Below are positions 1,680-36,409 of a stretch of DNA of 40,781 nt, piece by piece. The stretch lies in NCBI GenBank assembly GCA_025056865.1, contig JANWVO010000030.1:1-40781 (forward strand), in the 5' to 3' direction. The stretch is from Bryobacteraceae bacterium (GTDB taxonomy: Bacteria; Acidobacteriota; Terriglobia; Bryobacterales; Bryobacteraceae). The notes under the pieces were generated by a model, which was given only the letters and a program-made list of their open reading frames with translations, ran no database searches and was not told where the DNA came from. Position 1 is the stretch's first letter. Every line of letters starts with the position of its first letter. A program made the translations under genes and the position numbers.

Positions 1680-1700
1680 TCTCAGGTCTCCGGGCGGGCA

Positions 1701-13666: not shown

Positions 13667-13705
13667 GGATCCCAGCAACTCCCAGGCATGAATGCCGGCC
13701 GCGTC

Positions 13706-15624: not shown

Positions 15625-16956
15625 CTACTTCTGCTCCTGCTTGGAGAATTCCGGCGTGTCGATCTTCAGCACGAAGGTCTCCGCCGGACCCGTCGGCATC
15701 ACGTTCAGGCTGATGTCGCAGATGCCCTGCATCCGCTTGTTCGAGTCCTTGTCGACGAACAGGTCGTAGCCAAGGATCGTGCCCTGCTCCACCTGCTCGT
15801 CCAGCAGGCGCTTGAGCGGCTTCTCGATGCTCTCCTCCATGAAGTCGCGCGTCAGCACCTGCCCCGCCACCTGGAGCAGATAGTGGCGGCAGCAGCGCTC
15901 CAGGTAGCGCAGGATGCGGTAGCTCGTGAAGAACTTCAGCACGCCGTTGGGATCTTCGGCCTGCGTGCGGCAGCCGAAGAAGCACAGGTGGTTGTCGGCG
16001 TCGCGGATGATCGGAATGAGCTGGCGCTCCATCGAAAGGTGCTCCATCTCGCCGATCAGCGGCTCGAAGCGCACCTTCTCGACCCCCACGATCTGGCCGA
16101 AGCGGGAGCCGATGGGCCCCTGCGCCATGCCCTGCCCGTCGTCGGCGCGCGCCACCGCGCCGGCGAAGACCAGCGAAGGCGGCACGTACAGGTCGTCGCC
16201 TCCATCCACCGTCTTCTCGAACCAGTGCTTCGGCCGCGCCATCAGGTAGCCGGCGCAGACGACATCGGCGGCGGCGCGGTCCTCGGGCCGCTTCATGAAC
16301 TCGTACTTGCCGCCCGGCAGGAAGTTCCGTTCGAGATTCTTGAACGACTTCTCGTCGTCGACGTCCGTGATCAGCAGCATGCCCCACTGGTTGGCGATGT
16401 CCTCGAACTTCTCCCGCACCGGCTGCGGCACGAAGCCAGGCACCACCAGGTTGCAGATGTCGTCGCGGAAGTTGAAATTGTCATTGCGCTTGCGGACAAA
16501 GTTCTCCACCGCGGCGATGTTCATCGAAAAGACGTCCTTCATCGCCTTGGTGTCGGCGTTGAACACGTACAGCTCCACCGGCTTGCGCACCTTGCCGTCC
16601 ATCACCTTCGAGTTCTCGAAGAAGAGCTGGATCTGGCGGTAGCTGCGCTCGATCGGGCGGATCTGCGCGAAGAGCTTCTCGAGAATCTCGTCGCGGATCG
16701 CCTCGGCCTTGTCGATCTGCTCCTGGATCTTCTTCACCGTCTGCTCGTAGGTGTCCTCCACCGAGAGCAGGTTCTCGAGATCCATCAACTGCTTGAGGAA
16801 GTCGGCAGCCGACTGCGGCGTGAAGATCGAGGCGATCGTCCGGGTCTCGTCCATGAAGCCCGGGTGGAGGTCGGAAAAGATCTCCTGCAGGAGGTCTTTG
16901 GCGGCGCTTTCCCCGAGGATCTCAGCCGTCGTGCGGGTTTCAACGAGCTCGGCCAT
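15625..16956 (-). CDS. tssC: TssC (VipB) contractile sheath large subunit
   Basis: A 443-residue TssC sheath protein. Diagnostic blocks are an N-terminal acidic helix, the INQLxxxxDxQLxxQLNxILHHPEFQ-like region replaced here by DLENLLSVEDTYEQTVKKIQ, and the C-terminal segment LTRDFMEESIEKPLKRLLDEQVEQGTI, typical of TssC. With TssB it forms the contractile sheath around the Hcp tube. It begins immediately after the TssB stop, with no intergenic base, as expected for a strictly co-translated pair. Sequence divergence from proteobacterial TssC appears considerable; I rely on the C-terminal block and the TssB partner. Confidence 0.87.
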   Translation of the reverse strand: MAELVETRTTAEILGESAAKDLLQEIFSDLHPGFMDETRTIASIFTPQSAADFLKQLMDLENLLSVEDTYEQTVKKIQEQIDKAEAIRDEILEKLFAQIRPIERSYRQIQLFFENSKVMDGKVRKPVELYVFNADTKAMKDVFSMNIAAVENFVRKRNDNFNFRDDICNLVVPGFVPQPVREKFEDIANQWGMLLITDVDDEKSFKNLERNFLPGGKYEFMKRPEDRAAADVVCAGYLMARPKHWFEKTVDGGDDLYVPPSLVFAGAVARADDGQGMAQGPIGSRFGQIVGVEKVRFEPLIGEMEHLSMERQLIPIIRDADNHLCFFGCRTQAEDPNGVLKFFTSYRILRYLERCCRHYLLQVAGQVLTRDFMEESIEKPLKRLLDEQVEQGTILGYDLFVDKDSNKRMQGICDISLNVMPTGPAETFVLKIDTPEFSKQEQK

Positions 16957-17463
16957 TTACTGTGCCCCTCCTTTCGCGGCCACCTTCTGCAACTCCTCGC
17001 GCAGGCGGCCCAGTGCGCGGATGATCTCGGCCCGCTGCTCCTCGCTGTTCCAGGCGCGGCGCACGGCAGGCAGCTTCCAGCGGTCCTTCAGGCGGTACAG
17101 CAGATCGATGTTCGCCTTCAGGTCCGCAATGTCGTTGCGGGCATACGTGATGTTGCCCTCCTCGTCGCGGAACTCCTGCTTCTTTTGCAGGTTTTCCGGG
17201 TCGAAGTCCTTCATGGACCGGAACTTGAATTCGGCGCGGAATTCCGTCTCCTCCGGCCCGGCGGTCGCCTTGAAATTCAGCTCGGGCTTGAACTTGGCGA
17301 ACGCGTCGTTGAGGTCTTCCACCTTGACGGGTTCTTCGTTTTCCGACGCCACCTCCTTGCCGACCCGGTTCAGGGTCATCGGCAGGAGCACGGCGGCGGT
17401 CGATGTGGGCACCTTTCGCACCGAGGGCGTCACCCCCTTGCGAATCACCTTGACAAGCGGCAT
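16957..17463 (-). CDS. tssB: TssB (VipA) contractile sheath small subunit
   Basis: A 168-residue TssB. The family pattern is present: a basic N-terminus, the segment PVKVEDLNDAFAKFKPELNF, then FRSMKDFDPENLQKK, corresponding to the TssB blocks ending in FxSMxDFxPxxv. A C-terminal helix pair with KDRWKLPAVRRAW follows. TssB and TssC interlock into the sheath that is later disassembled by TssH. A GAGGAG sequence lies 10 nt before the ATG. The 77 bp before it contain no larger gene. It opens the structural T6SS block, after the vWA gene. Confidence 0.92.
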   Translation of the reverse strand: MPLVKVIRKGVTPSVRKVPTSTAAVLLPMTLNRVGKEVASENEEPVKVEDLNDAFAKFKPELNFKATAGPEETEFRAEFKFRSMKDFDPENLQKKQEFRDEEGNITYARNDIADLKANIDLLYRLKDRWKLPAVRRAWNSEEQRAEIIRALGRLREELQKVAAKGGAQ

Positions 17464-17540: not shown

Positions 17541-19007
17541 CTAGAACGGCTCCCGCGGGCCCGGCCCCTGGCGGTTGCCGAGCCGCGTCTGGGAAAAATC
17601 GCGGTGGGCCTGCGGATTGACTACGGTCGCGTCGGCGGCGCTGCGCGGCGGCATCGCCACGCCGCCAGGCCCTTTCTGGAAGCCCGGCGGCGCAGGCCGG
17701 CCGGCGATGACGCCATTCACGATCCGCGTCTGCGATCCCCACTTCGTCTGGCCTGTGCCGGGCATCACGCCGATGTACTGCTCTGGCCACACCAGCCGCG
17801 GCACCCAGTGCCACAGCACCAGCAGCAGCAGCGCCAGCCCGCAGAAAACTCCGATCGGGCGGATGATCGACGTCCATCCCGCGCTCACCGGCAGCGCCGC
17901 CAGCACCGCCTTCATCTCTTCCGGCGTGCACTTGCCCGCATACACCGGCACGCCCATCTGCGGCGCAGACCACTGCACCTCGGGCGACTTCAGCACCTGC
18001 CCGTTCGGCAGCGCAAGCTCCACCGTGACCGGCAGGTTCTGCCCGGCCAGCGAGGCGCGGTCCGGGTAGGGCGAGGAGAACGTCGCGGCCAGCCGGTTGT
18101 TCAGAAACGTGCGCGTGAACGTGAAAATGCGGCGCAGCCCGTCGAAATCGCTGGCAAGGTAATACTTCGTGCTGATCTGCCGCAGCGCGTTCTCATCCAG
18201 CGCCCCGGGTTCGCCAAAGCCGATGGCGATCACCGGGAACGGCGCCTGCTTCACGCGCCGCGCCGCTTCCTCCATGCCCGCCGGACCGGCCAGCAGCCCC
18301 AGATCGTCGCCTTTCAGCACCTCGTTGTTGCCGTCGGTGAGCACGATCACCATCGCCTCCGGCGACTCGCCCATTTCCTTCTCGATGCCCGGCAGCGCGC
18401 GCTGTAGCGTCTCGATGCCGAACACCACCGCCGAAAACAGCGCCGTGTTGTTGCGCAACTCCGGCTCAGGAAGCTGGTCGACCTGCGCCAGGGCGGCGGC
18501 CCGTGTCCGCGCGAACGCGGCCGAGCGGATCCGCTCCTCTACCAGATGGCTCTCGAACGGCACGATCGCGATGCGGTCTGCGCCCTCTTCGAACTGATCC
18601 AGAAAGCCTCGCACCGCGGCCTTGGCGGCGTCAAACCGCGTCTGGCCGGTGGGCAGCACCTTCTTCATGCTGCCGGAGATGTCGACGATGATCAGCGCCG
18701 CGCGCCCGCGCACCTTTGCCACGGACTCGCCCGCTGCCGAGGCGTAGAACGGCTTCAGCGGCTGCCCGCCCATCGTCACCGTGATGGCCGAAGCCAGCCG
18801 CTCCGGCGGCGGCAGTTGCGCGTTGTAAGGCTGGCCCCGCCCGTCGACCAGATTGAGCTTCATCCGGAAGCACGGCACCGTCGACGCGGGCTCGCAGGAG
18901 ACCAGCTTCAGCGGCTCGGCGAATTCAAGTCCCGGGTTCTGGGCGCCGGCGGGCGCCATGGCCGCGGCGGCCAGCGCTGCCGCCAGCCCGAGCCTGAAGG
19001 CATGCAT
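17541..19007 (-). CDS. Secreted vWA-domain protein with single TM segment
   Basis: A 488-residue protein. A signal peptide (1-22, ending AGA-QN) is followed by a vWA domain at about 102-305 whose metal-ion-dependent adhesion site is intact: DISGS at 109-113 and the TDG at 225-227. A beta-rich domain follows (about 320-360). A TM helix spans about 381-403 and a Pro/Gly-rich cytoplasmic tail ends the protein. The vWA domain is therefore placed in the periplasm. PpkA kinases in other T6SS loci can carry vWA domains, so this could be a split version, or part of a replacement trans-envelope complex. It lies directly upstream of tssB and 23 bp after the multi-TM FHA gene. Confidence 0.87.
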   Translation of the reverse strand: MHAFRLGLAAALAAAAMAPAGAQNPGLEFAEPLKLVSCEPASTVPCFRMKLNLVDGRGQPYNAQLPPPERLASAITVTMGGQPLKPFYASAAGESVAKVRGRAALIIVDISGSMKKVLPTGQTRFDAAKAAVRGFLDQFEEGADRIAIVPFESHLVEERIRSAAFARTRAAALAQVDQLPEPELRNNTALFSAVVFGIETLQRALPGIEKEMGESPEAMVIVLTDGNNEVLKGDDLGLLAGPAGMEEAARRVKQAPFPVIAIGFGEPGALDENALRQISTKYYLASDFDGLRRIFTFTRTFLNNRLAATFSSPYPDRASLAGQNLPVTVELALPNGQVLKSPEVQWSAPQMGVPVYAGKCTPEEMKAVLAALPVSAGWTSIIRPIGVFCGLALLLLVLWHWVPRLVWPEQYIGVMPGTGQTKWGSQTRIVNGVIAGRPAPPGFQKGPGGVAMPPRSAADATVVNPQAHRDFSQTRLGNRQGPGPREPF

Positions 19008-19030: not shown

Positions 19031-19975
19031 TCAGCCTTCCTTCTTCGTCATGAACCGGATCGCGGTGCGCCCGACGAGGATGTCGTCGCCCGCCTTCAGC
19101 TCCTGCGAAGTGGTCACCGTGCGTCCCCTGACCCGCAGGACGTAGCGCGCCAGGCCCTGCGGGTTGTTGATGTCAGGGTGCCGGGCGATGTAGAACCGCC
19201 CCTCCTTGCCGAACAGGATCGCGTGGCGCGGCGCGATGGCCGCGTCGGGAATGAACACCTGCACGCCTACGGCGAACGCCGTCTTGTTCAGGTCCAGCGG
19301 CTGCGAGCCGATCAGCAGCGTGTCGCCCTGCCGGATCTCCCACTCCTTGCCGCTGCGCCCGAACTTCGCCTGCGCGCGCGCATCGCCGCTCGAGACGAAC
19401 TTCAGCAGCCCGTCCCGCAGCAGGATTGGCGCCAGCGTCACCCCGAAGCAGATGCCCACGCCCACCAGCACGAAGCCGAGCGCCTGCGTCAGATCGGGAA
19501 TCCGGCTGCCGAGAATGTGGAACAGCGAGCCGCCAATGGCCCCGCCCACCAGCCCGCCCAGGCAGGCATGCACCACCCGCATCTTGTTCGCCATCACCCA
19601 CCGCAGCCCCAGCCCCAGTCCAATGAGGCTGCCCGTCAGCATCCAGCTCAGCAGCCGCGCCAGGAATGGGAGCTGCGCGCCCAGATTCTCGCTGATGGGA
19701 ATCATCGCCAGGCCGCCCAGCAGCCCGGCCACAAGGCCGATCGCGCCCCCCGCAATCACGTACCGGGCCACGACGCGGTTGCCGGACCACCGGTCGGAGA
19801 ACGCCACCGTCAGGAGGCCGATGATCAGCCCGAGCAGCGCTGCGGCGGTCAGGTCCGCCAGCGCCGGCTTGTTGGCGAGGACGGTTGCTGACAGCAGCGC
19901 CGTCAGCGCCCACGACAACAGCCCGGCGAAGCCTCCCGCCAGCGACATGAAGTACAGCGTCTGGTAGAGGCTCAT
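19031..19975 (-). CDS. Multi-TM protein with C-terminal FHA-like domain
   Basis: A 314-residue integral membrane protein. The first about 195 residues hold six or so hydrophobic helices, several Gly-rich (for example GLLSWALTALLSATVL and AGGAIGLVAGLLGGLAMIP). Residues about 210-312 form an FHA-like beta sandwich in the cytoplasm; the core RHAILF (with the conserved Arg-His) and GDDILVGRTAIRFM fit, but the usual Ser before the His is Pro-Arg-His here and the NG motif is weak, so phosphothreonine binding is uncertain. It is the second FHA protein in the cluster and the likely partner of the kinase encoded upstream. A promoter-like sequence lies just before it. Confidence 0.83.
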   Translation of the reverse strand: MSLYQTLYFMSLAGGFAGLLSWALTALLSATVLANKPALADLTAAALLGLIIGLLTVAFSDRWSGNRVVARYVIAGGAIGLVAGLLGGLAMIPISENLGAQLPFLARLLSWMLTGSLIGLGLGLRWVMANKMRVVHACLGGLVGGAIGGSLFHILGSRIPDLTQALGFVLVGVGICFGVTLAPILLRDGLLKFVSSGDARAQAKFGRSGKEWEIRQGDTLLIGSQPLDLNKTAFAVGVQVFIPDAAIAPRHAILFGKEGRFYIARHPDINNPQGLARYVLRVRGRTVTTSQELKAGDDILVGRTAIRFMTKKEG

Positions 19976-20052: not shown

Positions 20053-22149
20053 TCAAGGGGCGGCTCCCCCGGCGCTGAGCTGCGTCACCACCTGCCGGAT
20101 CCGCGCCAGATAGGCGCGGCTGCGTTCGGCTTCGCCCGTGTCCGGATTGATCTCGATCACCTTCTCGAAATGCGCGCGCGCGGCCGACAGGTAGCCGGCC
20201 GAGGAAGACTCGTTGAATTTTTCGGTGAAAATCAGGCCCAGCGCGTAATGCGCGTACAGGTCGGCGGGGTCCAGCCGCAGCGCCCGCTGGCACCAGCCCG
20301 CGGCGGCGTCGAAGCGGCGGCTGATGCGCTCGCAGTCGCAGAGCCCGAAGTTGGCCATGAACTGGAGCTCGCGCCAGATGTCGGTCTGCGCCGCGCGCTT
20401 CTTGCGGCCGATGCCAGCCAGGTAGCCAAGCACGTAGTAGTTCAGCTTGCCGGCCAGCTTCGAGTCGAAGTCGCTCAGCTTCAGATACTGCTGGTATTCG
20501 GGAATGGCGTCGGCGCAGCGCCTGCTGAAGCGCAGCGCCTCCGCCAGCCAGAAATGGGCCTCGGCGTGGCCGGGGTTCAGCCGGATCGCCTCGCGGGCGT
20601 GCTTCGCGCCCTCTTCGTAGGCGCCCTTGCGCGTGAAGGCCTGCGCCAGCAGCGCCGGCGTCAGCGAGTTGGCCGGATCGCGCTGCCAGGCCGCCGTCAG
20701 ATGGCGGATGGCCGCGTCCAGGTCGCCGACGTCCAGCAGCATCCCGCCGTAGGAGGCCTGCGCCTCGGCGTAGTCCGGATCGATGGCGATCGCCTGCTCG
20801 AAGGCCTTCCGCGCCCGGTCGTAGTCGTACAGCGCATGATAGGCGCGGCCCAGATACAGCGCCGCCTGGCTGTATTTCGGATCTTCATTCAGCGCTTTCC
20901 GGAAAAATTCCGCCGCTTTCAGGTAGTTTTTCTCGAAGCCTTTCTGGTAATATTCCATGCCTTCGTTGAAGGCGTCCACCGCGGAGCGCTTGCGCGTGCG
21001 CGGAATCACGATGCGCAGCGTCACCGTCGTCTCCTGGCCCGGATAGACGGTCTCCTCGCGCGGCCCGTCCGGCTCGTAGCCCATCCGCACGCCCTGGATC
21101 ACGTGCACGCCCGGCGTGATGCCCGGCAGCCGCAGCGGCTTGCCCCGGTTCACGATCCCCTGCGACTTGCCGTCGACGAACACTTCCACGCCGTCCATGT
21201 TGCTCTCGATCACCAGCGAGCCGAACTTCGGCGGCTGCAATGGCGCCGCCGGCGCGCGCGCCGGATTGTAGGCGAGGATCATGTTCGGGTCGTAGCTGCC
21301 GCGCTCCGCCGTCGGGTTCTGCCGCGCCTGCGTGTCGCGCCGCACGTTGACGCGGACGTATTCGCCCAGCTCGTCAGCGGTCACCACGCCGTCGCGGTTC
21401 TCGTCCGCTTCCCCTTCGATTCCCTTGATCAGGTAATACGTGAACACGCCGTGGCCCCCGCCCCAGATCTCGCTCTCGAACGACTGCTCGCGGTCGCGGC
21501 TGGCCGTGAGAGAAAACAGCGAACGGTCCAGTTGCAGAAGGCTCGCGTTGATCTGCCGCGTGTCGGCCTCCGGCGTGATCGCGCCCGAGTGGCACGCGTC
21601 GGTGAGCAGCACCTTCCACTTCGCGCGGATGTCCGTCCCGATCACCCTCCCGAGCCGCTCCATCGGATAGGACGTGCCGGGGATGTTGGCCGGGTCGATG
21701 TCGTACGGGGCCAGATACGCCTTGCCGCCGCTGACGAAGCCGTGCCCGGCGAAGTAGATCACCACGCGGTCGTCTTCCTTCGACACCGACGGCAGCCACT
21801 TCTCGAGCGCCTCGCGCAGGTTGGCCAGCGTCGCGTCCCGGCCGATCAGCCGCCTCACGTTTTCCGGCGGGAACTGGCCCCCCTCGGGACTGATCAGCGC
21901 GGCGTAGATGGCGGCCGCGTCGCGGGCCGGAAAGCGGAGCTGCCCCTGCGGCGGCAGCTTGGGATACTCGCTGATGCCCACCACCAGCGCGTAGCTGCGC
22001 GGGATGGTCACGCTCTCGCCGGGCTTCACCACCGGCGCGGCGGGCTCGCGCGTGAACTTCAGATCGCGCTGCTGCCCGCCGCCGGGCGGGGCGGGGGCCT
22101 GCGCCTGCGCGCTCATCGCGAGCGCCAGCAGGAGTACGGGGGCTGTCAT
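20053..22149 (-). CDS. Secreted caspase-like (C14) protease with PEGA domain and TPRs
   Basis: A 698-residue protein. After a signal-like N-terminus (1-18, ending AQA) comes a C14 caspase fold (about 50-245) with the catalytic dyad His136 in IYFAGHG and Cys186 in DACHSG. An EF-hand-like DENRDGVVTADE loop (249-260) follows, then a PEGA domain (about 310-380), and about eight TPR units from 390 to the end. I start at the ATG at 22149, which has GGGAGAAGG just upstream; a longer start at 22212 would overlap the preceding gene and has no ribosome-binding site, but would give the signal sequence a basic N-region, so export is likely rather than certain. Bacterial caspase-like proteins cut at Arg/Lys or Asp; specificity cannot be read here. 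DUF4384 genes upstream are common companions of such proteases. Confidence 0.87.
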   Translation of the reverse strand: MTAPVLLLALAMSAQAQAPAPPGGGQQRDLKFTREPAAPVVKPGESVTIPRSYALVVGISEYPKLPPQGQLRFPARDAAAIYAALISPEGGQFPPENVRRLIGRDATLANLREALEKWLPSVSKEDDRVVIYFAGHGFVSGGKAYLAPYDIDPANIPGTSYPMERLGRVIGTDIRAKWKVLLTDACHSGAITPEADTRQINASLLQLDRSLFSLTASRDREQSFESEIWGGGHGVFTYYLIKGIEGEADENRDGVVTADELGEYVRVNVRRDTQARQNPTAERGSYDPNMILAYNPARAPAAPLQPPKFGSLVIESNMDGVEVFVDGKSQGIVNRGKPLRLPGITPGVHVIQGVRMGYEPDGPREETVYPGQETTVTLRIVIPRTRKRSAVDAFNEGMEYYQKGFEKNYLKAAEFFRKALNEDPKYSQAALYLGRAYHALYDYDRARKAFEQAIAIDPDYAEAQASYGGMLLDVGDLDAAIRHLTAAWQRDPANSLTPALLAQAFTRKGAYEEGAKHAREAIRLNPGHAEAHFWLAEALRFSRRCADAIPEYQQYLKLSDFDSKLAGKLNYYVLGYLAGIGRKKRAAQTDIWRELQFMANFGLCDCERISRRFDAAAGWCQRALRLDPADLYAHYALGLIFTEKFNESSSAGYLSAARAHFEKVIEINPDTGEAERSRAYLARIRQVVTQLSAGGAAP

Positions 22150-22162
22150 CGCGTCCTTCTCC

Positions 22163-22927
22163 CTAGCGGTGCGCCAGCCGCAGCGTGTAAATGAACGGCT
22201 CTTCGCTGTCATCGCTCACGCTCACGGCCGCCGTCCGGTTCGACTTCACGAAGGTCAGCTCGCGCGACGCCGCGCCGGAAAACGGGGCCAGGTTCTCGGG
22301 CAGCGCCGCGTCCTTTTCCACCGGCTTCAGCCCGGCGGCATGATCAATGCATTCGCCGCGGGCGCGGAAGATCGTGTCGTCGCAGCGCGGCGTGATGGAG
22401 GGGTTCAGCGCGGGCGCGGCCGCAGGCAGCTTCGGCACCGGCAGCGCGCTGCGGCCGTCGCTCAGCCGCACCGGGCTCACCAGCCAGTAGACCACCTCGT
22501 AACCCGGCGGGCCTTCCAGGCGGAACCAGCCGTTCTCGGTCATCGGCACCAGATACTCGCGGCCCGCCTCGATGCGGTTCATCGTGCCGGTCTCTTCCTT
22601 CGGGAACAGCAGCGTGAAGCTGCCGGTGGTGCCGTGGTTCATCACATACAGGTAGCCGTTGAACGTGGCGCGGAAGCGGAACCGCACCAGGTCTCCGGTG
22701 GCGAACACCTGGTTCGGATCCACGCGCCGGGCCGCGCCCCGCTCGTTGCGCTCGACGATGATCTCGATGCGCTTGGCCGCCGCCGCCGGCCGCGCGTCCA
22801 GCCCGCCGCGCACAGGGGCCGGCTCAGTGGGCAGTGTTCCTGGCCGCACCGCGCCGCCCGGCGGCGGGGCCGCCCAGCCGGCCAGCAGCAGCAGCCATCC
22901 GGCGGCCGTCAAGCCTGGCAATCCCAT
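22163..22927 (-). CDS. Secreted DUF4384 protein 1
   Basis: A 254-residue protein with a signal peptide (1-20, hydrophobic core AAGWLLLLAGWAA). The DUF4384 core at about 55-150 is recognised by FATGDLVRFRFRATFNGYLYVMNHG...LLFPKEE followed by IEAGREYLVP and a WFRLEGPPGYEVVYWLVS block. DUF4384 is a small beta domain often paired or fused with caspase-like or kinase proteins; its molecular role is unknown. This copy also has a C-terminal extension (about 185-254) ending in FIYTLRLAHR that resembles the end of the other copy. It stops 13 bp before the caspase gene. Confidence 0.83.
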   Translation of the reverse strand: MGLPGLTAAGWLLLLAGWAAPPPGGAVRPGTLPTEPAPVRGGLDARPAAAAKRIEIIVERNERGAARRVDPNQVFATGDLVRFRFRATFNGYLYVMNHGTTGSFTLLFPKEETGTMNRIEAGREYLVPMTENGWFRLEGPPGYEVVYWLVSPVRLSDGRSALPVPKLPAAAPALNPSITPRCDDTIFRARGECIDHAAGLKPVEKDAALPENLAPFSGAASRELTFVKSNRTAAVSVSDDSEEPFIYTLRLAHR

Positions 22928-22957: not shown

Positions 22958-23890
22958 TCACCGGTGCCGGAGCGTCAGCTCGGCCACCACGCGGCCCTCT
23001 CCGGCGGCGCTGCCTGCCGTCGACGCATTCACCACATAGACAGCCGCCTCGGGGCCTCCTCCCACCGGAGACGGAGCCGAGGCCGCGTCCTTGTCCACCT
23101 TCGTGAACACCAGATCGCGCGACTGGATCCGGTTGCGGAGCTGCTCCACCCACGCGTCGTCATACCGGCCGGCCGAAAGCGTCGGCGGCGCGGCCGCCTT
23201 CGCAGGCCGGTCCGGCAGCACCGGCTTCTTCCCGGAAAGGCCGCCGATCAGCTCCTCCAGATCCTCCACAGGCTTCAGCGAGAAAACCAGGAACAGACGC
23301 TCGTCGCCGGGCTGCTCATCGAAAGTGAAATACTCGCCTTCGCCGCCGGGAATCTGGTACAGCCGCCCCGGAACGATTTCATTGCCGGGCTGCGACGACT
23401 CGGGGTGCGGGAACAGCGGCGACCACACTCCGCTCGACCCGCGCGCAATCACGTACAGGTAGCCGCGCCGGTTGCCCATCACGCTCAGCCGGATGCTGTC
23501 GCCGGCGCGGAACTCCGTCTCGGTGCTCACTTCCACCAGCCCCTGCGGCGTGCGCTTCAGCAGGCTGTAGCGCAGCCCCAGCGGCGGCTGGTTCTGCGGC
23601 GTCAACGACACCTTCTGGAAATACGCCTCCGCCTGCGACAGCGGCGGCGCGGCGGCCAGCTCGGGCTTCGGCCCGCCCGTCTTGCCTGGCTCGCGCGCCG
23701 GCTCCGGCCGGCGCGCCGGAGCCGTCTTGGCGGCCTTCTTCGCCGCCGTCTTCTTCTGCACCGCCACCATGTCGGCGGCGGAAAAGAACGCGTCCCTTGC
23801 GTTGATCAGCGGCTCCTGCGCCCCGGCCAGATACCCGGCGAGGGCGGCCAGCAGAAGTCCGGACAGGCTCGTTCGTGTGTTATTGGGCAT
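22958..23890 (-). CDS. Secreted DUF4384 protein 2
   Basis: A 310-residue secreted protein with a signal peptide (about 1-24) and a Lys/Ala/Pro-rich linker (40-80). A DUF4384 core at about 105-215 reads FRAGDSIRLSVMGNRRGYLYVIARGSSGVWSPLFP, then PGRLYQIP and LFLVFSLKP. It matches copy 1 at these blocks and at the C-terminal ELTLRHR. The start overlaps the kinase stop by 11 bp, so translation is coupled. Proximity to both the kinase and the caspase suggests these are periplasmic partners of one of them. No enzymatic motif is visible. Confidence 0.83.
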   Translation of the reverse strand: MPNNTRTSLSGLLLAALAGYLAGAQEPLINARDAFFSAADMVAVQKKTAAKKAAKTAPARRPEPAREPGKTGGPKPELAAAPPLSQAEAYFQKVSLTPQNQPPLGLRYSLLKRTPQGLVEVSTETEFRAGDSIRLSVMGNRRGYLYVIARGSSGVWSPLFPHPESSQPGNEIVPGRLYQIPGGEGEYFTFDEQPGDERLFLVFSLKPVEDLEELIGGLSGKKPVLPDRPAKAAAPPTLSAGRYDDAWVEQLRNRIQSRDLVFTKVDKDAASAPSPVGGGPEAAVYVVNASTAGSAAGEGRVVAELTLRHR

Positions 23891-25703
23891 CTTTCACGCA
23901 CCGGAAACCGATCGCTGCATGCGGGAGGCCGGCGGGCCAGCCCCTCCGCATATACAAACGGAAAAACCTGTCGTCCTTCAGGAGGAAGCTGCCCCCCTTG
24001 ATGCAGTACCACTCGCGGCTCACCTCGCCGCCGCCCAGCGCGCGCCGCAGATCCTCGATTTCGCGCTCGGTGGCCGGGAAAGGCGTGTCCACCCACTCGA
24101 ACACGTTGCCGGCCAGCCCGAGAATCCGGTACGGGCTTTGCCGCTCCGGGTAGTCGTCCACCGGGACCAGCGTGCCGGGGTTCGGCATCGGCTGGTTGCC
24201 CCACGGATAGATGCGGCCGTCGGTGCCCCGGCCCGCCTTCTCCCATTCCTGTTCCGTTGGCAGCCGCTTGCCCGCCCACGCGCAGTAGGCGCGCGCGTCG
24301 GCCAGGGTCACGTGCGTCACCGGCAGGGAGGGCGAGGAGCGGAAGTCCTCCGAGGATGGCTCCGCGTGTCCCGTGGCCTGCACAAAGCGGGCATACTGCG
24401 CATTGCTCACCTCGGTAGCGTCCATGTAGAAGGCCGGAAGCCGCAGCTCCTGCCTCCGGTTCGGCGATTCGGGACTGTCGTCGCCGAACACAAAGGTTCC
24501 TTCCGGAACCAGGAACATGGTCACCCCCTCCCTCTGGATCACCTGCGGCAGTTCGCGCGAAGCCGATTCCGCCTTCTGCGCCGCCTTCCCAGATTTCGGC
24601 CCATTATCGCGCGATTTCGAAACAAAGTAAATGCCCGCTGAAACGGCTGCCACCACGGCGAGCGCCGCCCCCGCCAGCAGCGGAACGCGGCTCTTCTTCG
24701 CCGGGGCCGCCTGCCGCCGCTCCGGCGCTCCCGGCTGCCAGGCGGGAGGGGCCTCGGCCGCCGGCGCAGGCTCCGCCGCCGCGCCGCTGCGTGCTGCCTC
24801 CAGCAGGTCGGGGCGGTCCACCACGGGCTGAAGCCGCACCTCGGTCTCCAGCCGGTACGAACGCCGCAGGTCGTCCAGCAGCTCGCGCGCGGATGAATAC
24901 CGCTTTTCGCGGTCCTTCTCCAGCAGGCGGTTGACGATCCGCTCCAGCTCCGGGTCGATGTCCGGCACCAGAGTGCTCAGCGCCGGCGGAGCCTTCTGGC
25001 AGTGGCCGATCTCAATGGCGCGGAAGCTGTCGCCGGTGAACGGCTTCATGCCGGTGAGCAGCTCGAAGAAGATGACGCCCAGCGAGTACAGGTCGCTGCG
25101 GTGGTCGCACGGCTCGGCGCGGATCTGCTCCGGCGACATGTAATACGGCGTGCCCAGCGTCTCGCCGGCGCGCGTGCGGGCGCTCGGCGCGTCGCCCGCC
25201 TTGGCGATGCCGAAATCCAGCACGATCACGCGCCCGCTCAGGTCGATGCGGATGTTGGCGGGTTTCAGGTCGCGGTGGACGAAGCGCCGTTCCCCGGCCC
25301 AGGCCAGCGCCTCGGCCACCTGCCGGATGATCGACACCGCTTCCGGCGGCGAAAGGCGCCCGTGGCGCTCCAGGTAGCTCTTCAGATCCTCGCCCTCGAT
25401 GTAGGGCATGATCAGCCAGTGCAGCGAGCCCCATTCGCCCACGTCGTACACGGGCGCGATGTTGGGATGCCCGCCCAACGTGGCCGCCGTGCGCGCCTCG
25501 TCCATGAAGCGCGCCACGATTTCCGGCTCGTCCGCCAGCGCCTCGGCCAGCACCTTGACGGCAAACAGCCCGCCGTGCGCGCGGTGGCGGGCCAGAAAGA
25601 CTTCGGCCATGCCCCCGCCGCCAATCCATTCCAGAATTTCGTACTTCTCACCAAGCACCTGGTTCAGGGCGGTGCGGATCGCATGACGGGAAGCGTTCGA
25701 CAT
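23880..25703 (-). CDS. Ser/Thr protein kinase with TM and periplasmic FGE-sulfatase-like domain
   Basis: A 607-residue PknB-type kinase. The kinase domain (20-285) has the glycine loop IGGGGMAEV (27-35), Lys50, Glu69, HRDLKPAN (143-150), DFG (163-165) and GTPYYMSPEQ, so all catalytic elements are intact and it is an RD kinase. After a Pro/Ala-rich linker, a TM helix lies at 340-361. A formylglycine-generating-enzyme-like (FGE-sulfatase) domain fills 385-605, with FYMDATEVSNAQYARFV, LPTEQEWEKAGRG and GFRCVKD motifs. FGE catalysis needs a pair of Cys in the C-terminal half; only two Cys outside the final RC are visible there and the pairing is not clear, so it is more likely a sensor or ligand-binding version. 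Likely to phosphorylate targets read by the two FHA proteins. Confidence 0.93.
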   Translation of the reverse strand: MSNASRHAIRTALNQVLGEKYEILEWIGGGGMAEVFLARHRAHGGLFAVKVLAEALADEPEIVARFMDEARTAATLGGHPNIAPVYDVGEWGSLHWLIMPYIEGEDLKSYLERHGRLSPPEAVSIIRQVAEALAWAGERRFVHRDLKPANIRIDLSGRVIVLDFGIAKAGDAPSARTRAGETLGTPYYMSPEQIRAEPCDHRSDLYSLGVIFFELLTGMKPFTGDSFRAIEIGHCQKAPPALSTLVPDIDPELERIVNRLLEKDREKRYSSARELLDDLRRSYRLETEVRLQPVVDRPDLLEAARSGAAAEPAPAAEAPPAWQPGAPERRQAAPAKKSRVPLLAGAALAVVAAVSAGIYFVSKSRDNGPKSGKAAQKAESASRELPQVIQREGVTMFLVPEGTFVFGDDSPESPNRRQELRLPAFYMDATEVSNAQYARFVQATGHAEPSSEDFRSSPSLPVTHVTLADARAYCAWAGKRLPTEQEWEKAGRGTDGRIYPWGNQPMPNPGTLVPVDDYPERQSPYRILGLAGNVFEWVDTPFPATEREIEDLRRALGGGEVSREWYCIKGGSFLLKDDRFFRLYMRRGWPAGLPHAAIGFRCVKDAQ

Positions 25704-25715
25704 GGCGGGTTTCCA

Positions 25716-26228
25716 TCAGCTTAAACGTTTTCTCCGCGGCTCCGGCAGAAAAGCGGCGCTGCGCTCCAGCTCATAGCCCGGCGGCGGCAGCACCGGATCA
25801 TAGGGAAGCGGGGGGCGCACGCCCGCCTCCGGCTGCATCAGGTGGTCCGCCGACAGATTGAACAGCTCCCAGGAAACCACCCGCTGGAGCTGACGGACCG
25901 CCTCCACCAGCGACGTTCCTTCCTGCCGCATGTCCCACAGGCAGACGAAGCCGTTTTCCGGATGCACATTCGGATGAAGCACGGGAAATGCAAGCCAGGC
26001 TTCCAGCGGAACGGACGGGTAATATTCGGGAAATTCAAACCGCACGGCCACGCCCCGCGCCGCCGTGCCGTCCATGCGGTAGTGGGGCGTCTCCGGCAGC
26101 CGCACCAGCCCGCCGGGCTCCGCCGGCAGCACGAGCCGTCCGGGGTTGGCGGCCTCGGCCCGCCGGAGCCACTCCCATTCGTTGCGGATGCGCCGCTCGC
26201 GGATCCGCTCGAAGGCTGCCCGCGCCAT
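25716..26228 (-). CDS. E2-like ubiquitin-conjugating (UBC-fold) protein
   Basis: A 170-residue protein with a UBC-type core. Its ATG shares one base with the stop of the Ubl gene (TGATG), fixing the start. An N-terminal basic helix (about 1-25) precedes strands, then EFPEYYPSVPLEAWLAFP (65-82), HPNV (85-88) and the GFVCLWDM segment with Cys96. This matches the E2 order FPxxYPxxPPxxxF...HPNIxxxGxICL, in which the Asn of HPN stabilises the transition state and the Cys carries the Ubl thioester; here Asn87 and Cys96 are nine residues apart, one more than in UbcH5-type E2s. A helix (SLVEAVRQLQRVVSW) follows, as in E2s. The C-terminal 40 residues are Pro-rich and basic. Function as an E2 is inferred. 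Confidence 0.87.
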   Translation of the reverse strand: MARAAFERIRERRIRNEWEWLRRAEAANPGRLVLPAEPGGLVRLPETPHYRMDGTAARGVAVRFEFPEYYPSVPLEAWLAFPVLHPNVHPENGFVCLWDMRQEGTSLVEAVRQLQRVVSWELFNLSADHLMQPEAGVRPPLPYDPVLPPPGYELERSAAFLPEPRRKRLS

Positions 26229-26488
26229 CAGCCGTTGGTGGCGACGGTGGAGACGCGCAGCACGTCGTTCGGCCGCACGCCCTGCTCCGGCAGCGGCCGG
26301 CGGAAATCCAGCGCCACCCCGTTCCAGACCACCTGCGGCTCCCCCTCGCCCTGAAGCACGTCGCCGCGCTCGCGCAGGTCGTACAGGATTTCGTGCAGCA
26401 CGTCGTCGAGAATTTCGTGCTCGTCGATGTCGACGTTGTATTTCGTTTCCCCGTTGATGGTGTCGAAATACATCTGATATTTCGGCAT
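26228..26488 (-). CDS. Ubiquitin-like (beta-grasp) protein ending in Gly
   Basis: An 86-residue protein with the secondary-structure order of ubiquitin: two strands (YQMYFDT, TKYNVDI), a helix (residues about 25-41, DDVLHEILYDLRERG), then VVWNGVALDFRRPLPEQGVRPNDVLRVS. The last part parallels ubiquitin [20 protein letters not shown] and also the L-x-x-x-G(I/V)-x-x-x-D-x-L pattern of the YukD/EsaB type. The final residue is Gly86, in VATNG; no residues follow, so no processing protease would be needed before activation. A GGGGGAGG ribosome-binding sequence precedes the ATG. It sits between the RING-like and E2-like genes. Confidence 0.87.
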   Translation of the reverse strand: MPKYQMYFDTINGETKYNVDIDEHEILDDVLHEILYDLRERGDVLQGEGEPQVVWNGVALDFRRPLPEQGVRPNDVLRVSTVATNG

Positions 26489-26500
26489 GATTTCCTCCCC

Positions 26501-27199
26501 CTACTGAACGTCCACCAGGAATTTCCTGAGCGCGTCCGGCAGCGCCTGCACCCGCCAGCCGCAGCGGGCGCACAGGCCGTTGGCATCGTCCCAGCACTCG
26601 ATGCACTGCGGCCGGCCGCACCGCGGGCAGGCGCGCAGCTCGGCCTCCTCCGGGCCCGTCTGGCACACCTGGCATCGGCCTGCCGTCACGCCCGGCCCCA
26701 CATGGCGGTCCCACCACTGCCGGCTCGGCGGAAACAGCGGCACCGCGTTCTGCACGCAAAGCCGGCAGCGGATTTTTTCAAAATCCCAGCACCGCGTCTC
26801 GCAAACCTCCAGGTTGCACCGCGGGCACACAAACGAAATTCTCCCCGCCAGCCGGCAATTGCACAGCCCGCACCGGCGCGCGTCGCGGTTCTGCCACCAG
26901 ACCACCAATGCGGAAACAGCCGGCGCCAGCATCGGCGCCAGCCAGTACAGCCGGTCGAGCCGCGGCTGCGCCAGGCTCCACACCGCCACGCCGAGCGCGC
27001 CCGCCGCCAGCGGCGGAACCACCGCCAGCCAGGGATTCGGCAGCTCGGCTTCGAACGCACGCAGCAGGAACACCGACAGCCCGCCCACGGCCAGCGCCGA
27101 CGCCAGCGCGATGCCCGCTCCGCCCATGCATGCGAAAAACTGCACGAGCCACAGCAGGAACGTGGTCGCGGCGAATACCGTCATCGAGCGGGCGTTCAT
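26501..27199 (-). CDS. Four-TM protein with two tandem RING-like Cys8 modules
   Basis: A 232-residue protein. Residues 7-102 hold about four hydrophobic helices. Residues 110-148 and 176-213 each contain eight cysteines in matching spacing. Module 1 has Cys110, 113, 125, 128, 133, 137, 145, 148 and module 2 has 176, 179, 191, 194, 199, 202, 210, 213. Both read C-x2-C-x11-C-x2-C-x4-C-x(2-3)-C-x7-C-x2-C. That is the paired-zinc cross-brace order of RING and related binuclear treble-clef domains, here all Cys instead of the usual single or double His. The modules should face the cytoplasm, where the Ubl and E2 are. A role as E3 is plausible but not shown. ATG overlaps the E1-like stop by four bases. 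Confidence 0.85.
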   Translation of the reverse strand: MNARSMTVFAATTFLLWLVQFFACMGGAGIALASALAVGGLSVFLLRAFEAELPNPWLAVVPPLAAGALGVAVWSLAQPRLDRLYWLAPMLAPAVSALVVWWQNRDARRCGLCNCRLAGRISFVCPRCNLEVCETRCWDFEKIRCRLCVQNAVPLFPPSRQWWDRHVGPGVTAGRCQVCQTGPEEAELRACPRCGRPQCIECWDDANGLCARCGWRVQALPDALRKFLVDVQ

Positions 27200-28242
27200 G
27201 CGGGCTCCTCCCGTTTCCGTCCTTTCCGAATACTATACAGGTGATCCGGGGGCAAGCCCAGCTCGGGCGGCTGAAACCCCGCCAGCGGCTCCTCGTATGC
27301 CACGGCGCACCGCGTGTCCAGCTCGAGCAGGCGGCGGCTGCCGCACGCCGGGCAGGCGCCCTCGCGCCGCAGCTTCGCCGCCCTCTGCCGCGGGCTCCAC
27401 TCGCCGCCGCACTCCAGGCACCGCGCCCGCAGGCAGACCGCCCACTCCCAGCACGCTTCCTCGCCCTCGCGCAGCACTGCCCGGAAGGGCCCTTCCACCG
27501 GCACGAGCCGCCACTGCCCGCCCTCATGGAACGGGCAGGCTTCGTTCAGCGGCAGCCGGAGCTCTTCCAGCCGCAGCGGCGCATCGAGCCGGAATTCCAC
27601 GCTGCGCGCCTCGCGTTCCCCGCGCCGGATCCACTCCGCGGCAAAATGCACCTGCAACGCCGCCGTCATCGCTGCCAGAGTCGGCGTCGCCGTCCAGCCG
27701 CCCGGCTCCTCCGGCACGCGGCACGGATGCGCCGCGCTCGACCATGTCCGCAGCCACTCGCGCCGCCGCGCCGCCGTCAGGCGGCATCCGTGGCAGGCGC
27801 CTTCGCGGCCCGGATACCAGCTCACGCGTCCCCCCGCCCCGGCCGTGTCCATGCCGCCGTCGCACAAGGGCACGTCCAGCCGCGTGGCGATCCTCGCCAT
27901 CTCCAGCCGTGCCGACTCGCGGTCCACCCCGGCGAACAACGCGTGCCTTCCGGCCAGCTTCTGCCACCCCACATCGGCGACCTCGGCCGCCACAGCCAGC
28001 CATCGCGTGCGCGGAAACCACTCCTGCCCCACCTCTGCCAGCACCTCCGCCTTCGGACGCCCGCACGCTCCGCGCCTGCGGAACAGGGCGCACTTGGCGA
28101 GATTCGCTTCCTCCACGACGTCCGGATCCACCAGCAGCGCCTCGCCCACGCCCAGCAGCCCCAGCTCCCGTACCAGCTCATTGCCCAGCGCGCCCAGGCC
28201 AACCACGGCAACGCGCCAGCTCTCTGGCCGTTCGGCTCTCAT
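27196..28242 (-). CDS. E1/ThiF-like activating enzyme with C-terminal zinc ribbon
   Basis: A 348-residue Rossmann-fold protein of the ThiF/MoeB/E1 family, expected to adenylate a Ubl C-terminus. GLGALG (15-20) binds nucleotide; VDPDVVEEANLAK (38-50) gives the Asp41 and Asn47 of the family; Lys64 in GRPK aligns with the conserved MoeB Lys, and Asp107 in GVDRES with its Asp. A CHGC motif (150-153) could bind zinc. Cys174 in HPCRVPEEP, before the TPTLAAMTAALQ helix, sits at the MoeB-type conserved Cys and is the best thioester candidate. A C-terminal zinc ribbon uses Cys275, 278, 297 and 300. It is first in the operon and starts a long minus-strand run; no good promoter was found in the 166 bp before it. 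Confidence 0.88.
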   Translation of the reverse strand: MRAERPESWRVAVVGLGALGNELVRELGLLGVGEALLVDPDVVEEANLAKCALFRRRGACGRPKAEVLAEVGQEWFPRTRWLAVAAEVADVGWQKLAGRHALFAGVDRESARLEMARIATRLDVPLCDGGMDTAGAGGRVSWYPGREGACHGCRLTAARRREWLRTWSSAAHPCRVPEEPGGWTATPTLAAMTAALQVHFAAEWIRRGEREARSVEFRLDAPLRLEELRLPLNEACPFHEGGQWRLVPVEGPFRAVLREGEEACWEWAVCLRARCLECGGEWSPRQRAAKLRREGACPACGSRRLLELDTRCAVAYEEPLAGFQPPELGLPPDHLYSIRKGRKREEPA

Positions 28243-28408: not shown

Positions 28409-29023
28409 ATGTCTGGGTTCTGTTCAGGGTTGAGGGTGCAGGTTGTGGCCTGTGGAATGGCGCTGCTGCTCGTTTGTCCGGCTGCGCCGGCGCGCGCGGT
28501 GCAGCAGCCGGAAGGCGGCCTGCGGATCACAATCGTCGAGGGCGACGAAGCCATCTTCAATGTGCGCCAGCGCGTGGCCCGCGAAGCGATCATTCAGGTG
28601 GAAGATGAGAACCGGCGCCCGGTGGCCGGAGCGCTCGTCACGCTCACCGCGCCCCGCGACGGCGCCAGCGCCATCTTCAGCAACGGCCTGAACAACATCA
28701 CTCTCACCACGGACGACGCCGGCCGGGTCGTGGTCCGCGGCATCCGGCCCAACAGCGTGCAGGGCAGGTTCTCCATCCGTGTCACCGCGGTCAAGGAAGG
28801 GTTGCGGGGCATGACCCAGATCAACGTCACCAACGCCGCTGTCGCCGCCGCTGCGGCGGGAGCCACCGCGAAGATCATCACCTTCCTGGCGATCGTCGGT
28901 GCCGGAGCCGCCGCCGGAGCCGTCGCCGCCACCCGCAACGGAGGCGGGACCGGCCCGGCGGCGGCAGCGCCTCCCGCCACCACCATCACCCCAGGCACGC
29001 CCACCGTGGGGCCGCCCCGCTGA
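28409..29023 (+). CDS. Secreted beta-domain protein 1 (carboxypeptidase-regulatory-like), duplicated
   Basis: A 204-residue protein with a signal peptide (about 1-30, cleavage near ARA) and a beta-sandwich of the carboxypeptidase-regulatory type (about 38-140): IQVEDENRRPVAGALVTLTAPRDG and TTDDAGRVVVRGIRPN. A hydrophobic helix follows (about 155-175) and a Pro/Thr/Ala tail. The fold usually acts as a passive adhesive or stalk domain. It is a close paralogue of the gene at 32513. A GGAGGACGTC ribosome-binding sequence precedes the ATG. It starts the plus-strand operon opposite the E1-like gene. Function unknown. Confidence 0.8.
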   Translation: MSGFCSGLRVQVVACGMALLLVCPAAPARAVQQPEGGLRITIVEGDEAIFNVRQRVAREAIIQVEDENRRPVAGALVTLTAPRDGASAIFSNGLNNITLTTDDAGRVVVRGIRPNSVQGRFSIRVTAVKEGLRGMTQINVTNAAVAAAAAGATAKIITFLAIVGAGAAAGAVAATRNGGGTGPAAAAPPATTITPGTPTVGPPR

Positions 29024-32512: not shown

Positions 32513-33097
32513 ATGCGGGAATTGTCGTCTGCGAAAAGCTGCCTGTCCCTGTTCGTCTCCGTCTGGCTCGTCCTCCAGCCTGCCGCGGCCCGTCCTGCGG
32601 CCCTCGAGGAGCAGGAGCGGCTGCGGATAGTCATCGTCGAAGGGGACCAGGCCCTCTTCAACGTGCGCCAGCGCGTCGCGCGGGAAGCCATCATCCAGGT
32701 GGAGGACGAAAACCGCAGGCCCGTCGCCGGAGCGCTCCTCACGCTGACCGCCCCGCGCGAGGGCGCCAGCGTCGTCTTCGCCAACGGGCTCAACAACGTC
32801 ACGCTCGCCACTGACGAAATGGGCCGGGCTGTGGTCCGTGGCATCCGGCCCAACCAGGTGCAGGGCAGCTTCCGCATCCGCATCACCGCCGTCAAGGATG
32901 GCATGAAGGGGTCGGCCGAGATGCAGGTCTCCAATGCCGCTGTCGCCGCCGGCAGCAACGCCGTCTCCGCGAAATTCCTCACGATTCTCGCCGCCGCCGG
33001 GGCTGCGGCGGCGGGCATCGCCTTGGCGGCGCGCACCGGGGATGGCCCGCAGTCATCGCCCGCCATCCCGACAACGCCCGGCTCCGGCCGCCGCTGA
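32513..33097 (+). CDS. Secreted beta-domain protein 2, paralogue of the gene at 28409
   Basis: A 194-residue protein with a signal peptide (about 1-27) and the same beta-sandwich as the gene at 28409: FNVRQRVAREAIIQVEDENR and PVAGALLTLTAPREGAS are nearly identical, and the matching DNA is also alike (about 28519-28860 against 32621-32950). A hydrophobic helix (about 155-178) and a short Ser/Pro tail follow. The signal peptide and tail differ from copy 1, so divergence is confined to the ends. It lies 166 bp after the Ig-repeat gene; that gap has no other coding signal. The duplication is recent or maintained by gene conversion. Confidence 0.8.
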   Translation: MRELSSAKSCLSLFVSVWLVLQPAAARPAALEEQERLRIVIVEGDQALFNVRQRVAREAIIQVEDENRRPVAGALLTLTAPREGASVVFANGLNNVTLATDEMGRAVVRGIRPNQVQGSFRIRITAVKDGMKGSAEMQVSNAAVAAGSNAVSAKFLTILAAAGAAAAGIALAARTGDGPQSSPAIPTTPGSGRR

Positions 33098-35642: not shown

Positions 35643-36059
35643 GTGCTGCGTCTCGCCCCGCCAGCTTGGCAGGCCATTGCCGCCCACGCCCGGCAGGCGG
35701 CGCCCGAAGAAGCATGCGGCATCCTCGTCGGGCGGCACGAAGCCGGGGAGTGGCTCGCGCTCCGGGCCGAACCCTGCCTCAACGTCCATCCCGGAGATAG
35801 GCGGCGCCATTTCCTCATCGACCCGGAAAGGCATCTGGCCCTTCAGCGCGAAGCGCGCCAGCAGGGGCTGGAAATCGTCGCCTTCTACCACTCCCATCCG
35901 GAAGGCCCGTGCAGCCCTTCGGAGGAAGACGGCAGAATGGCCCACCCCTGGGCTCCCATGCTCATCGTCGCCCTGCGCGCCGGTGACGTGGCAGAGGCCC
36001 GGGCGTGGCTCTGGCAGCAGGGCGCCGCCCGCGCAATCCCGCTCGCCGTCGCGCCCTGA
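35643..36059 (+). CDS. JAMM/MPN+ metallopeptidase (M67-like)
   Basis: A 138-residue JAB domain with a complete zinc site: Glu23 (in PEEACGIL), His83 and His85 (HSHPEG), Ser93 and Asp96, giving the JAMM pattern H-x-H-P-x6-S-x2-D. In bacteria such stand-alone proteins release sulphur-carrier or Ubl proteins (for example Mec+ acting on CysO) and in eukaryotes cut ubiquitin. The next gene, a rhodanese, starts at a TGATG overlap, so sulphur-carrier chemistry is the simplest role. It is also the only JAMM enzyme in a window with a Ubl system about 7.5 kb away, transcribed in the other direction. A GTG start with no ribosome-binding sequence is used. Confidence 0.88.
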   Translation: MLRLAPPAWQAIAAHARQAAPEEACGILVGRHEAGEWLALRAEPCLNVHPGDRRRHFLIDPERHLALQREARQQGLEIVAFYHSHPEGPCSPSEEDGRMAHPWAPMLIVALRAGDVAEARAWLWQQGAARAIPLAVAP

Positions 36060-36409
36060 TGTCACCCGCGGCCGCGTTGCCGCATCCCTGCATTCAGATG
36101 CTGCAATCCCTCTTCTACAGGCCAACCGAAGTGTCGCCGGCCGAGGCCCGGCGCCTGATGCAGGAAGACCGCTCCGTGCAGTTCGTCGACGTCCGCGAAC
36201 ACCACGAGCGCATGGCGCGCCATATCCCCGGCACTCTCCACATCCCCCTCGGCGAGCTCCCGCGGCGCCTGCACCAGCTCGATCCCGCCCGGCCTGTCAT
36301 CGTCCACTGCAAGAGCGGCGCCCGCTCGGCCGCCGCCTGCCATCTGCTCGAAAAGATGGGCTTCCGCCAGGTCTACAACCTCCGCGGCGGCATCGACGCC
36401 TGGGGCTGA
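36059..36409 (+). CDS. Rhodanese-like sulphurtransferase
   Basis: A 116-residue single rhodanese domain. The active-site loop is CKSGARS with Cys84, and VDVREHHERMARHIPGTLHIPLGEL (44-68) is the other family hallmark. The catalytic loop form, C-K-S-G-x-R-S, fits GlpE- and MoeB-linked rhodaneses that carry persulphide. Start ATG overlaps the JAMM stop by one base. It probably supplies sulphur to a ThiS/MoaD-type carrier or detoxifies sulphide/cyanide; partner not seen here. Confidence 0.88.
   Translation: MSPAAALPHPCIQMLQSLFYRPTEVSPAEARRLMQEDRSVQFVDVREHHERMARHIPGTLHIPLGELPRRLHQLDPARPVIVHCKSGARSAAACHLLEKMGFRQVYNLRGGIDAWG

Follow-up and report, generated by a model that had tools for sequence, protein, structure and literature searches.

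Is a bacterial ubiquitin-like conjugation cascade tied to a type VI secretion system (T6SS), or does it lie beside one by accident? The question is raised by a 40,781-nt stretch of DNA from a Bryobacteraceae bacterium (GCA_025056865.1, contig JANWVO010000030.1, positions 1–40,781, forward strand), the whole of which we call the window. There, four consecutive open reading frames (ORFs) on the reverse strand, at 25716–28242, run in the order E1-like enzyme, membrane zinc protein, ubiquitin-like protein (Ubl) and E2-like enzyme, followed by genes that include those of a T6SS. We find that this cascade is genetically bound to a pair of membrane proteins, carrying FHA and vWA domains, and, in the main lineage, to a T6SS in which neither TssL nor TssM was detected. 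The cassette comprises:

27196–28242, reverse strand: E1-like enzyme of the ThiF family, 348 aa, with C-terminal zinc-ribbon cysteines (ThiF 6.2e-19; PDB profile matches)
26501–27199, reverse strand: membrane zinc protein, 232 aa, three predicted transmembrane segments, two cysteine clusters (Prok-RING_2 below threshold; hydropathy)
26228–26488, reverse strand: ubiquitin-like modifier, 86 aa, C-terminal Asn85-Gly86 (ubiquitin/SUMO-fold model)
25716–26228, reverse strand: E2-like enzyme, 170 aa, HPN at 85–87, Cys96 (UQ_con below threshold; UBC-fold model)

The E1 and zinc protein genes join at ATGA, the zinc protein and Ubl genes are 12 nt apart, and the Ubl and E2 genes join at TGATG, as a first-pass annotation of this DNA had read them; a kinase gene starts 12 nt past the E2 stop. 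Because this spacing is short, the single transcription unit proposed there, running from the cassette into the downstream genes, is plausible from sequence, but the co-linear layout is not general, as the cassette diverges from the T6SS genes in many relatives. No Rfam match was found in the window.

Prokaryotic tri-ligase Ubl systems combine an E1, an E2, a RING protein and a Ubl, often with a JAB protein, as far as the excerpts of Iyer 2006 (PMC1779556) and of the account of FtsH-ternary systems (PMC7159879) go. In single-protein Pfam searches of the window proteins (cut-offs of 22.4 bits for Prok-RING_2 and 27 bits for UQ_con), the zinc protein fell just short of Prok-RING_2 (1.8e-4, 22.1 bits), the E2-like protein stayed under UQ_con (4.8e-5, 23.4 bits) and the Ubl matched no family. 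The E2 and RING matches are thus below threshold when taken singly; the identities of E2, E1 and Ubl were settled by profiles and models, the fold results coming from a VIA-align second look at Foldseek's top 1000 on the predicted Ubl and E2 models.

The E1 profile matched UBA7, UBA3, MoeB and ThiF in the PDB, that is, eukaryotic E1s as well as ThiF/MoeB, and this, with the Pfam match to ThiF, bears out the earlier E1/ThiF-like assignment. Cys174 is invariant in 28/28 aligned rows, as are the cysteine pairs 150/153, 275/278 and 297/300. Cys174 is presumably the counterpart of the reactive cysteine of ThiF and would then be the reactive cysteine of this E1, whose sequence points to a ThiF fold. 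The E2 model has a UBC fold, and the protein carries both the HPNV motif and the Cys96 that had been singled out; Asn87 and Cys96 are invariant in 29/29 rows, with Cys96 at the predicted catalytic position.

The Ubl model has the ubiquitin/SUMO fold, so both folds on which the first-pass annotation had staked its case, E2 and Ubl, turned up in the models. The Ubl profile had no significant match in the PDB (best 0.048), and Pfam YukD (PF08817) matched 0/29 Ubls at 0.1; the fold itself is compatible with YukD. The protein has 86 aa and an Asn-Gly end in 27/29 rows, the other two being fused to the E2. Since the Ubl already ends in Asn-Gly, no processing is required, and the model together with this end upholds the predicted beta-grasp Ubl with a C-terminal Gly. 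The Ubl also changes slowly: its dN/dS is 0.00 to 0.12 in four comparisons, against 0.13 to 0.23 for the E2 in as many. Over the 18 loci that have all genes, mean identity is 0.75 for the Ubl, 0.76 for TssC, 0.69 for TssB, 0.50 for FHA, 0.44 for vWA, 0.41 for the zinc protein, 0.40 for the E2 and 0.38 for the E1. A slow Ubl with faster enzymes would be expected for a modifier with many constrained contacts, and could also have other causes.

Membership of the E1 in the ThiF family would suit a sulfur-carrier or cofactor pathway of the ThiS/ThiF kind. Such a pathway has no use for a UBC-fold E2 whose cysteine is invariant, and the neighbours are T6SS and envelope genes; we rejected this reading on account of the E2 and regard it as extremely improbable. 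Alternatively, the Ubl might be a structural or adaptor subunit of a non-covalent membrane complex, with the E1 and E2 as scaffolds or non-conjugating loaders. The precedent would be YukD and the EccD Ubl domain of the type VII secretion system (T7SS): YukD is likewise a beta-grasp Ubl found next to a secretion system and a kinase, as far as the relevant part of PMC1779556 describes it, whereas the YukD/EccD Ubl has no E1 or E2. The invariant E1 and E2 cysteines, the prevalence of the Asn-Gly tail and the JAB gene that adjoins the fused form of the Ubl (below) all speak against such a complex, which we consider quite unlikely.

For the zinc protein, the RING assignment is weak. Its best PDB match is ribosomal aS34 (0.0039), at the first cysteine cluster; the NOT4 and Arkadia RINGs reach only 0.006–0.007. 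The tandem RING-like membrane protein of the first-pass annotation therefore stands as a membrane protein with two cysteine clusters, but its likeness to RING is weak and below threshold. By sequence the second cluster may be weakly RING-like, making the protein a candidate E3. Membrane predictions for this protein, and for the FHA and vWA proteins below, are from simple hydropathy.

What lies downstream is a T6SS whose genes are divergent yet recognisable by Pfam, preceded by kinase, caspase, FHA and vWA genes:

23880–25703, reverse strand: Ser/Thr kinase fused to an FGE-sulfatase domain, one transmembrane segment (Pkinase 3.2e-47, FGE-sulfatase 6.8e-41)
20053–22212, reverse strand: caspase-TPR protein (Peptidase_C14 3.3e-14 and TPR families)
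19031–19975, reverse strand: multi-transmembrane protein with a C-terminal FHA-like domain (FHA 0.034, below threshold; five transmembrane-like segments)
17541–19007, reverse strand: vWA protein, one predicted transmembrane segment near its C-terminal third (VWA 4.6e-15; hydropathy)
16957–17463, reverse strand: TssB, sheath (T6SS_VipA 6.6e-6)
15625–16956, reverse strand: TssC, sheath (TssC PF17541 5.1e-29)
14124–14561 and 14600–15082, reverse strand: two paralogous Hcp/TssD candidates (paralogy by alignment)
11966–13678, reverse strand: TssF candidate beside TssG (Baseplate_J 0.0073, below threshold)
11019–11981, reverse strand: TssG with a PASTA-like N-terminus (T6SS_TssG 6.5e-10)
9113–11113, reverse strand: TssK, start codon uncertain (T6SS_VasE 5e-6)
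6345–9029, reverse strand: ClpV/ClpB-type AAA+ ATPase (AAA_2 4.8e-54, ClpB_D2-small 4.3e-21)
2452–4095, reverse strand: VgrG (Phage_base_V 4.3e-27, Phage_GPD 1.2e-10)

The kinase, caspase and vWA neighbours named by the first-pass annotation are confirmed by Pfam, but the FHA domain stays below the cut-off. On sequence, the cluster appears to hold the sheath, baseplate, spike and Clp-type ATPase genes of a T6SS, with TssF and Hcp as candidates only: the best PDB match of the Hcp/TssD candidates, Bacteroidales TssD, is not significant (0.44). For TssC, a profile search of the PDB gave nothing at 0.001.

This T6SS appears to differ from the canonical form at the membrane. TssL and TssM, which mark the envelope complex of T6SS subtypes i/ii, were each found in 0/12 cassette genomes while an E. 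coli control was positive, TssJ not being searched for. TssN, the component that marks subtype iii, also matched 0/12, though no control genome passed its cut-off either. Subtype iv likewise has no TssL or TssM according to the part of PMC10433429 that treats it; there it is described as being without ClpV, whereas the window's cluster contains a Clp-type AAA+ gene, for ClpV or ClpB, kept in 3/4 genus relatives on the fetched stretch.

Several lines of evidence show that the link between cassette and T6SS is conserved. First, the E2 is present in 5/5 genomes of the window's genus and in 1/36 other relatives, and all four relatives within the genus have the cassette co-linear with the kinase, two DUF4384 genes, caspase, FHA, vWA, TssB and TssC. 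Second, a sequence-pattern scan of 84,980 species gave 23 cassette loci; the scan misses distant relatives without the patterns, as it missed genome G282. In 19/23 of these loci the fetched stretch includes TssB, and the others (L042, L043, L045 and L056) end at contig ends. Adding the window, G001, G004, G089, G179, G281 and G282 makes 30 distinct loci, 25 of which have TssB on the fetched stretch; four more are limited by their contigs, and in G282 no T6SS gene was found. Third, the layout varies: members of the window's group are co-linear, Acidobacteriaceae and some further genomes have the divergent form, and G282 and L056 have E2-JAB-FHA running in one direction. The adjacency of cassette and T6SS has survived rearrangement, and with TssB in 25/30 loci of differing layouts we reject chance adjacency. 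Fourth, among 396 Acidobacteriota genomes the Ubl occurs in seven and a strong TssC of the window's type in six, all within those seven; one further TssC match (G241) is 24% identical, and no Ubl accompanies it.

The proposal that relatives would keep the four genes beside tssB and tssC is therefore borne out by the 30 loci and by matching presence in the 396 genomes. Placement at the head of a T6SS operon holds in the window's genus and nearer relatives, but in other relatives the cassette points the opposite way. Record titles of the pattern-scan loci are acidobacterial, bar one metagenome-assembled genome titled Arcobacter sp. (L035, DYJN01000050.1); this is a contig of G002, from the window's genus and with the same gene order, and the Arcobacter label is probably wrong. 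Some of the loci come from named strains (Granulicella mallensis X5P3, Granulicella sp. S156 and S190, and Edaphobacter modestus DSM 18101), of which cultures ought to be available.

The same linkage bears on whether the cassette belongs to anti-phage defence, as Bil/E1-E2 operons do, and stands beside a T6SS by chance. Its E1 matches PADLOC E1-E2 models (best 1.1e-8) and BilD (3e-5), its kinase and caspase match defence models, and a conflict system with E1, E2, RING, Ubl and a caspase exists, in the portion of PMC7159879 concerned. The kinase and caspase matches, however, are to generic domains; the zinc protein, Ubl, E2, FHA and vWA had no PADLOC match at 0.01, and the window's cassette has no JAB. 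Bil operons share E1, E2 and Ubl with the window, but in the section of PMC11354881 at hand their Ubl is tandem, their E2 is of the CEHH type and a JAB is present, against a single Ubl, an HPN-type E2 and a T6SS context here. Given also the TssB/TssC linkage in 25/30 loci, we hold defence to be very unlikely.

Which neighbours are the closest partners? The membrane FHA gene is found in the same 7/396 Acidobacteriota genomes as the Ubl, and vWA adjoins FHA in at least 25/30 loci. G282, from another class, has genes for E1 and the zinc protein, then for a fused Ubl-E2, JAB, FHA and vWA, followed by an ORF on the opposite strand. Because G282 keeps both FHA and vWA where no T6SS gene was found, these two are the strictest partners of the cassette. 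Judged by G282, G037 and L056, the core module consists of the E1, the zinc protein, the Ubl and the E2 together with the FHA and vWA proteins. This opens the alternative that the Ubl is conjugated but the cascade serves the FHA-vWA pair in general envelope signalling, the T6SS being a frequent neighbour rather than the target. The FHA distribution, which equals that of the Ubl exactly where that of TssC does not quite, and the G282 module fit this idea; the strong TssC that never occurs without the Ubl, and the TssB that stays close through differing layouts, count against it, and we think it unlikely.

Several observations weigh against a cascade that serves the T6SS. G282 gave no TssB or TssC profile match on the first 10 kb of its locus and no TssC genome-wide at E up to 1, in a genome that is 90% complete in 950 contigs; nor was TssC found in G037, where the contig ends about 95 bases past vWA. 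The co-occurrence counts are not independent, because the genomes are related and inherited one locus. On the chemistry, His85 of the E2 is present in at least 90% of the 29 rows and Pro86 is lost in some, so neither is universal; homologues of the zinc protein match Prok-RING_2 in 11/28 and Prok-RING_1 in 6/28, a weak RING similarity; and the two fused Ubls (G282 and L056, 2/29) are without Asn-Gly.

In both fused cases a JAB gene lies next to the fusion (Prok-JAB 9.1e-14 in L056 and 9.6e-12 in G282), which by analogy fits release of the Ubl; such release by a JAB beside a Ubl-E2 fusion was argued for another system in the passages of PMC7159879 consulted. The window has a JAB gene of its own (35643–36056, forward strand), overlapping a rhodanese gene (pair 35643–36409). 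We considered it as the missing deconjugase and rejected it: because of the rhodanese overlap, the presence of at least one copy of this kind in 12/12 cassette genomes and a distance of about 1.87 Mb from the cassette in G001, we treat it as housekeeping. It probably belongs, with the rhodanese, to a sulfur pathway, and a role in trans is possible.

The E2 profile matched 13/396 genomes, including six additional weaker matches, among them G219. There (L072:7941–19919) a different cassette encodes DnaJ (3.9e-12), E1 (ThiF 3.8e-46), Ubl (YukD 0.0054, below threshold), E2 (UQ_con 2e-9) and JAB (6.7e-12). It is followed by a TssJ-like gene (no Pfam match), TssK (1.3e-33) and TssL (2.2e-25), and two further ORFs are, by eye, TssM and TssA candidates. 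G548 (L092:7717–20000) has the same DnaJ-E1-Ubl-E2-JAB cassette and T6SS genes, so that in both genomes, each from Acidobacteriaceae, this second type stands upstream of canonical TssK/TssL genes. Relatives of the G219 E2 occur in 12/150 family genomes, G219 included. Two of them, G501 and G538, carry the second-type cassette, and their contigs, 5.5 and 5.2 kb long, include no T6SS genes; G509 has the window's own type; and seven have another E1-JAB-E2 arrangement, with no TssK, TssL, TssM or TssA match on the fetched stretch. By eye these seven (L093, L094, L095, L096, L097, L098 and L099) also encode a YukD-like Ubl, a zinc-finger protein and a GYF-type membrane protein. Separately, G065 (L074:5700–9487) has an E1 (ThiF 1.1e-50), a TIR-like ORF by eye and a Rad60-SLD-like/UQ_con protein, a Ubl-E2 fusion in another context.

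Taking all this together, we lean, if not far, towards a Ubl cascade at the inner membrane that works with the FHA and vWA proteins and serves the T6SS without detectable TssL/TssM; the conserved linkage suggests a T6SS controlled by ubiquitin-like tagging. The E1 would adenylate Gly86 of the Ubl and take it onto Cys174, presumably as a thioester, and the Ubl would be handed on to Cys96 of the E2. The membrane zinc protein, acting as E3, could direct it to a lysine on a neighbouring protein of the membrane or the T6SS, with FHA and vWA as first candidates and the baseplate or sheath next. We infer, as the first-pass annotation had hypothesized, covalent modification of a T6SS or envelope component, a mark that may license, anchor or dismantle the apparatus. 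The kinase and FHA could supply a phosphorylation input, compared with PpkA-Fha control of canonical T6SSs, where a kinase and FHA also sit beside T6SS genes; unlike that system, as treated in part of PMC10433429, the window has a multi-transmembrane FHA protein and an added Ubl cascade.

A bolder proposal, which we put forward tentatively as possible rather than probable, is that a Ubl-conjugating platform of RING-like E3, FHA, vWA, E1, E2 and Ubl replaces TssJLM as the anchor of an Acidobacteriota T6SS that forms a subtype of its own, a covalent Ubl mark building or licensing membrane attachment, and that Ubl cascades have been coupled to T6SSs more than once, since two other Acidobacteriaceae have a canonical T6SS cluster that begins with a cassette of another kind, DnaJ-E1-Ubl-E2-JAB.

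Other genes of the window stand outside this scheme. Within the T6SS cluster, 4177–6249 (reverse strand) encodes 3-keto-disaccharide hydrolase-type domains and a C-terminal FHA domain. Past VgrG, three genes at 7–2423 (reverse strand) range from about 25% to 82% identity among genus members, varying far more than the structural genes, and so are possibly an effector module. Two similar secreted-looking proteins are encoded opposite to the cassette (28409–29023 and 32513–33097, forward strand), the gene of the first staying beside the E1 in genus relatives.

The cassette resembles tri-ligase systems in its separate E1 and putative RING-type genes, its E2 and its Ubl, and the Ubl-E2 fusions with JAB in G282 and L056 recall systems in the excerpted text of PMC7159879. 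Unlike tri-ligase systems, the window's type has a free 86-aa Ubl with a mature Asn-Gly end, a zinc protein anchored in the membrane, partners there with FHA and vWA domains, linkage to a T6SS and, at the loci of 27/29 rows as far as inspected, no JAB in the cassette. The E1/E2/RING/ubiquitin cascade of Caldiarchaeum subterraneum is archaeal and, to our knowledge, is not tied to a secretion system. Prokaryotic tri-ligase Ubl-conjugation systems are reportedly the subject of the RING-finger paper of Burroughs 2011, which may describe similar acidobacterial operons. The parts are of known kinds; no T6SS linked to an E1-E2-Ubl cassette was seen among the matches listed in the open-licence literature searched.

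If this reading is right, a bacterial injection machine would be under the control of ubiquitin-like conjugation. Bacterial Ubl cascades, studied mainly in defence so far, would gain a defined machine as partner, and it would become testable what a bacterial Ubl attaches to and by what means a T6SS can function in the absence of TssL and TssM.

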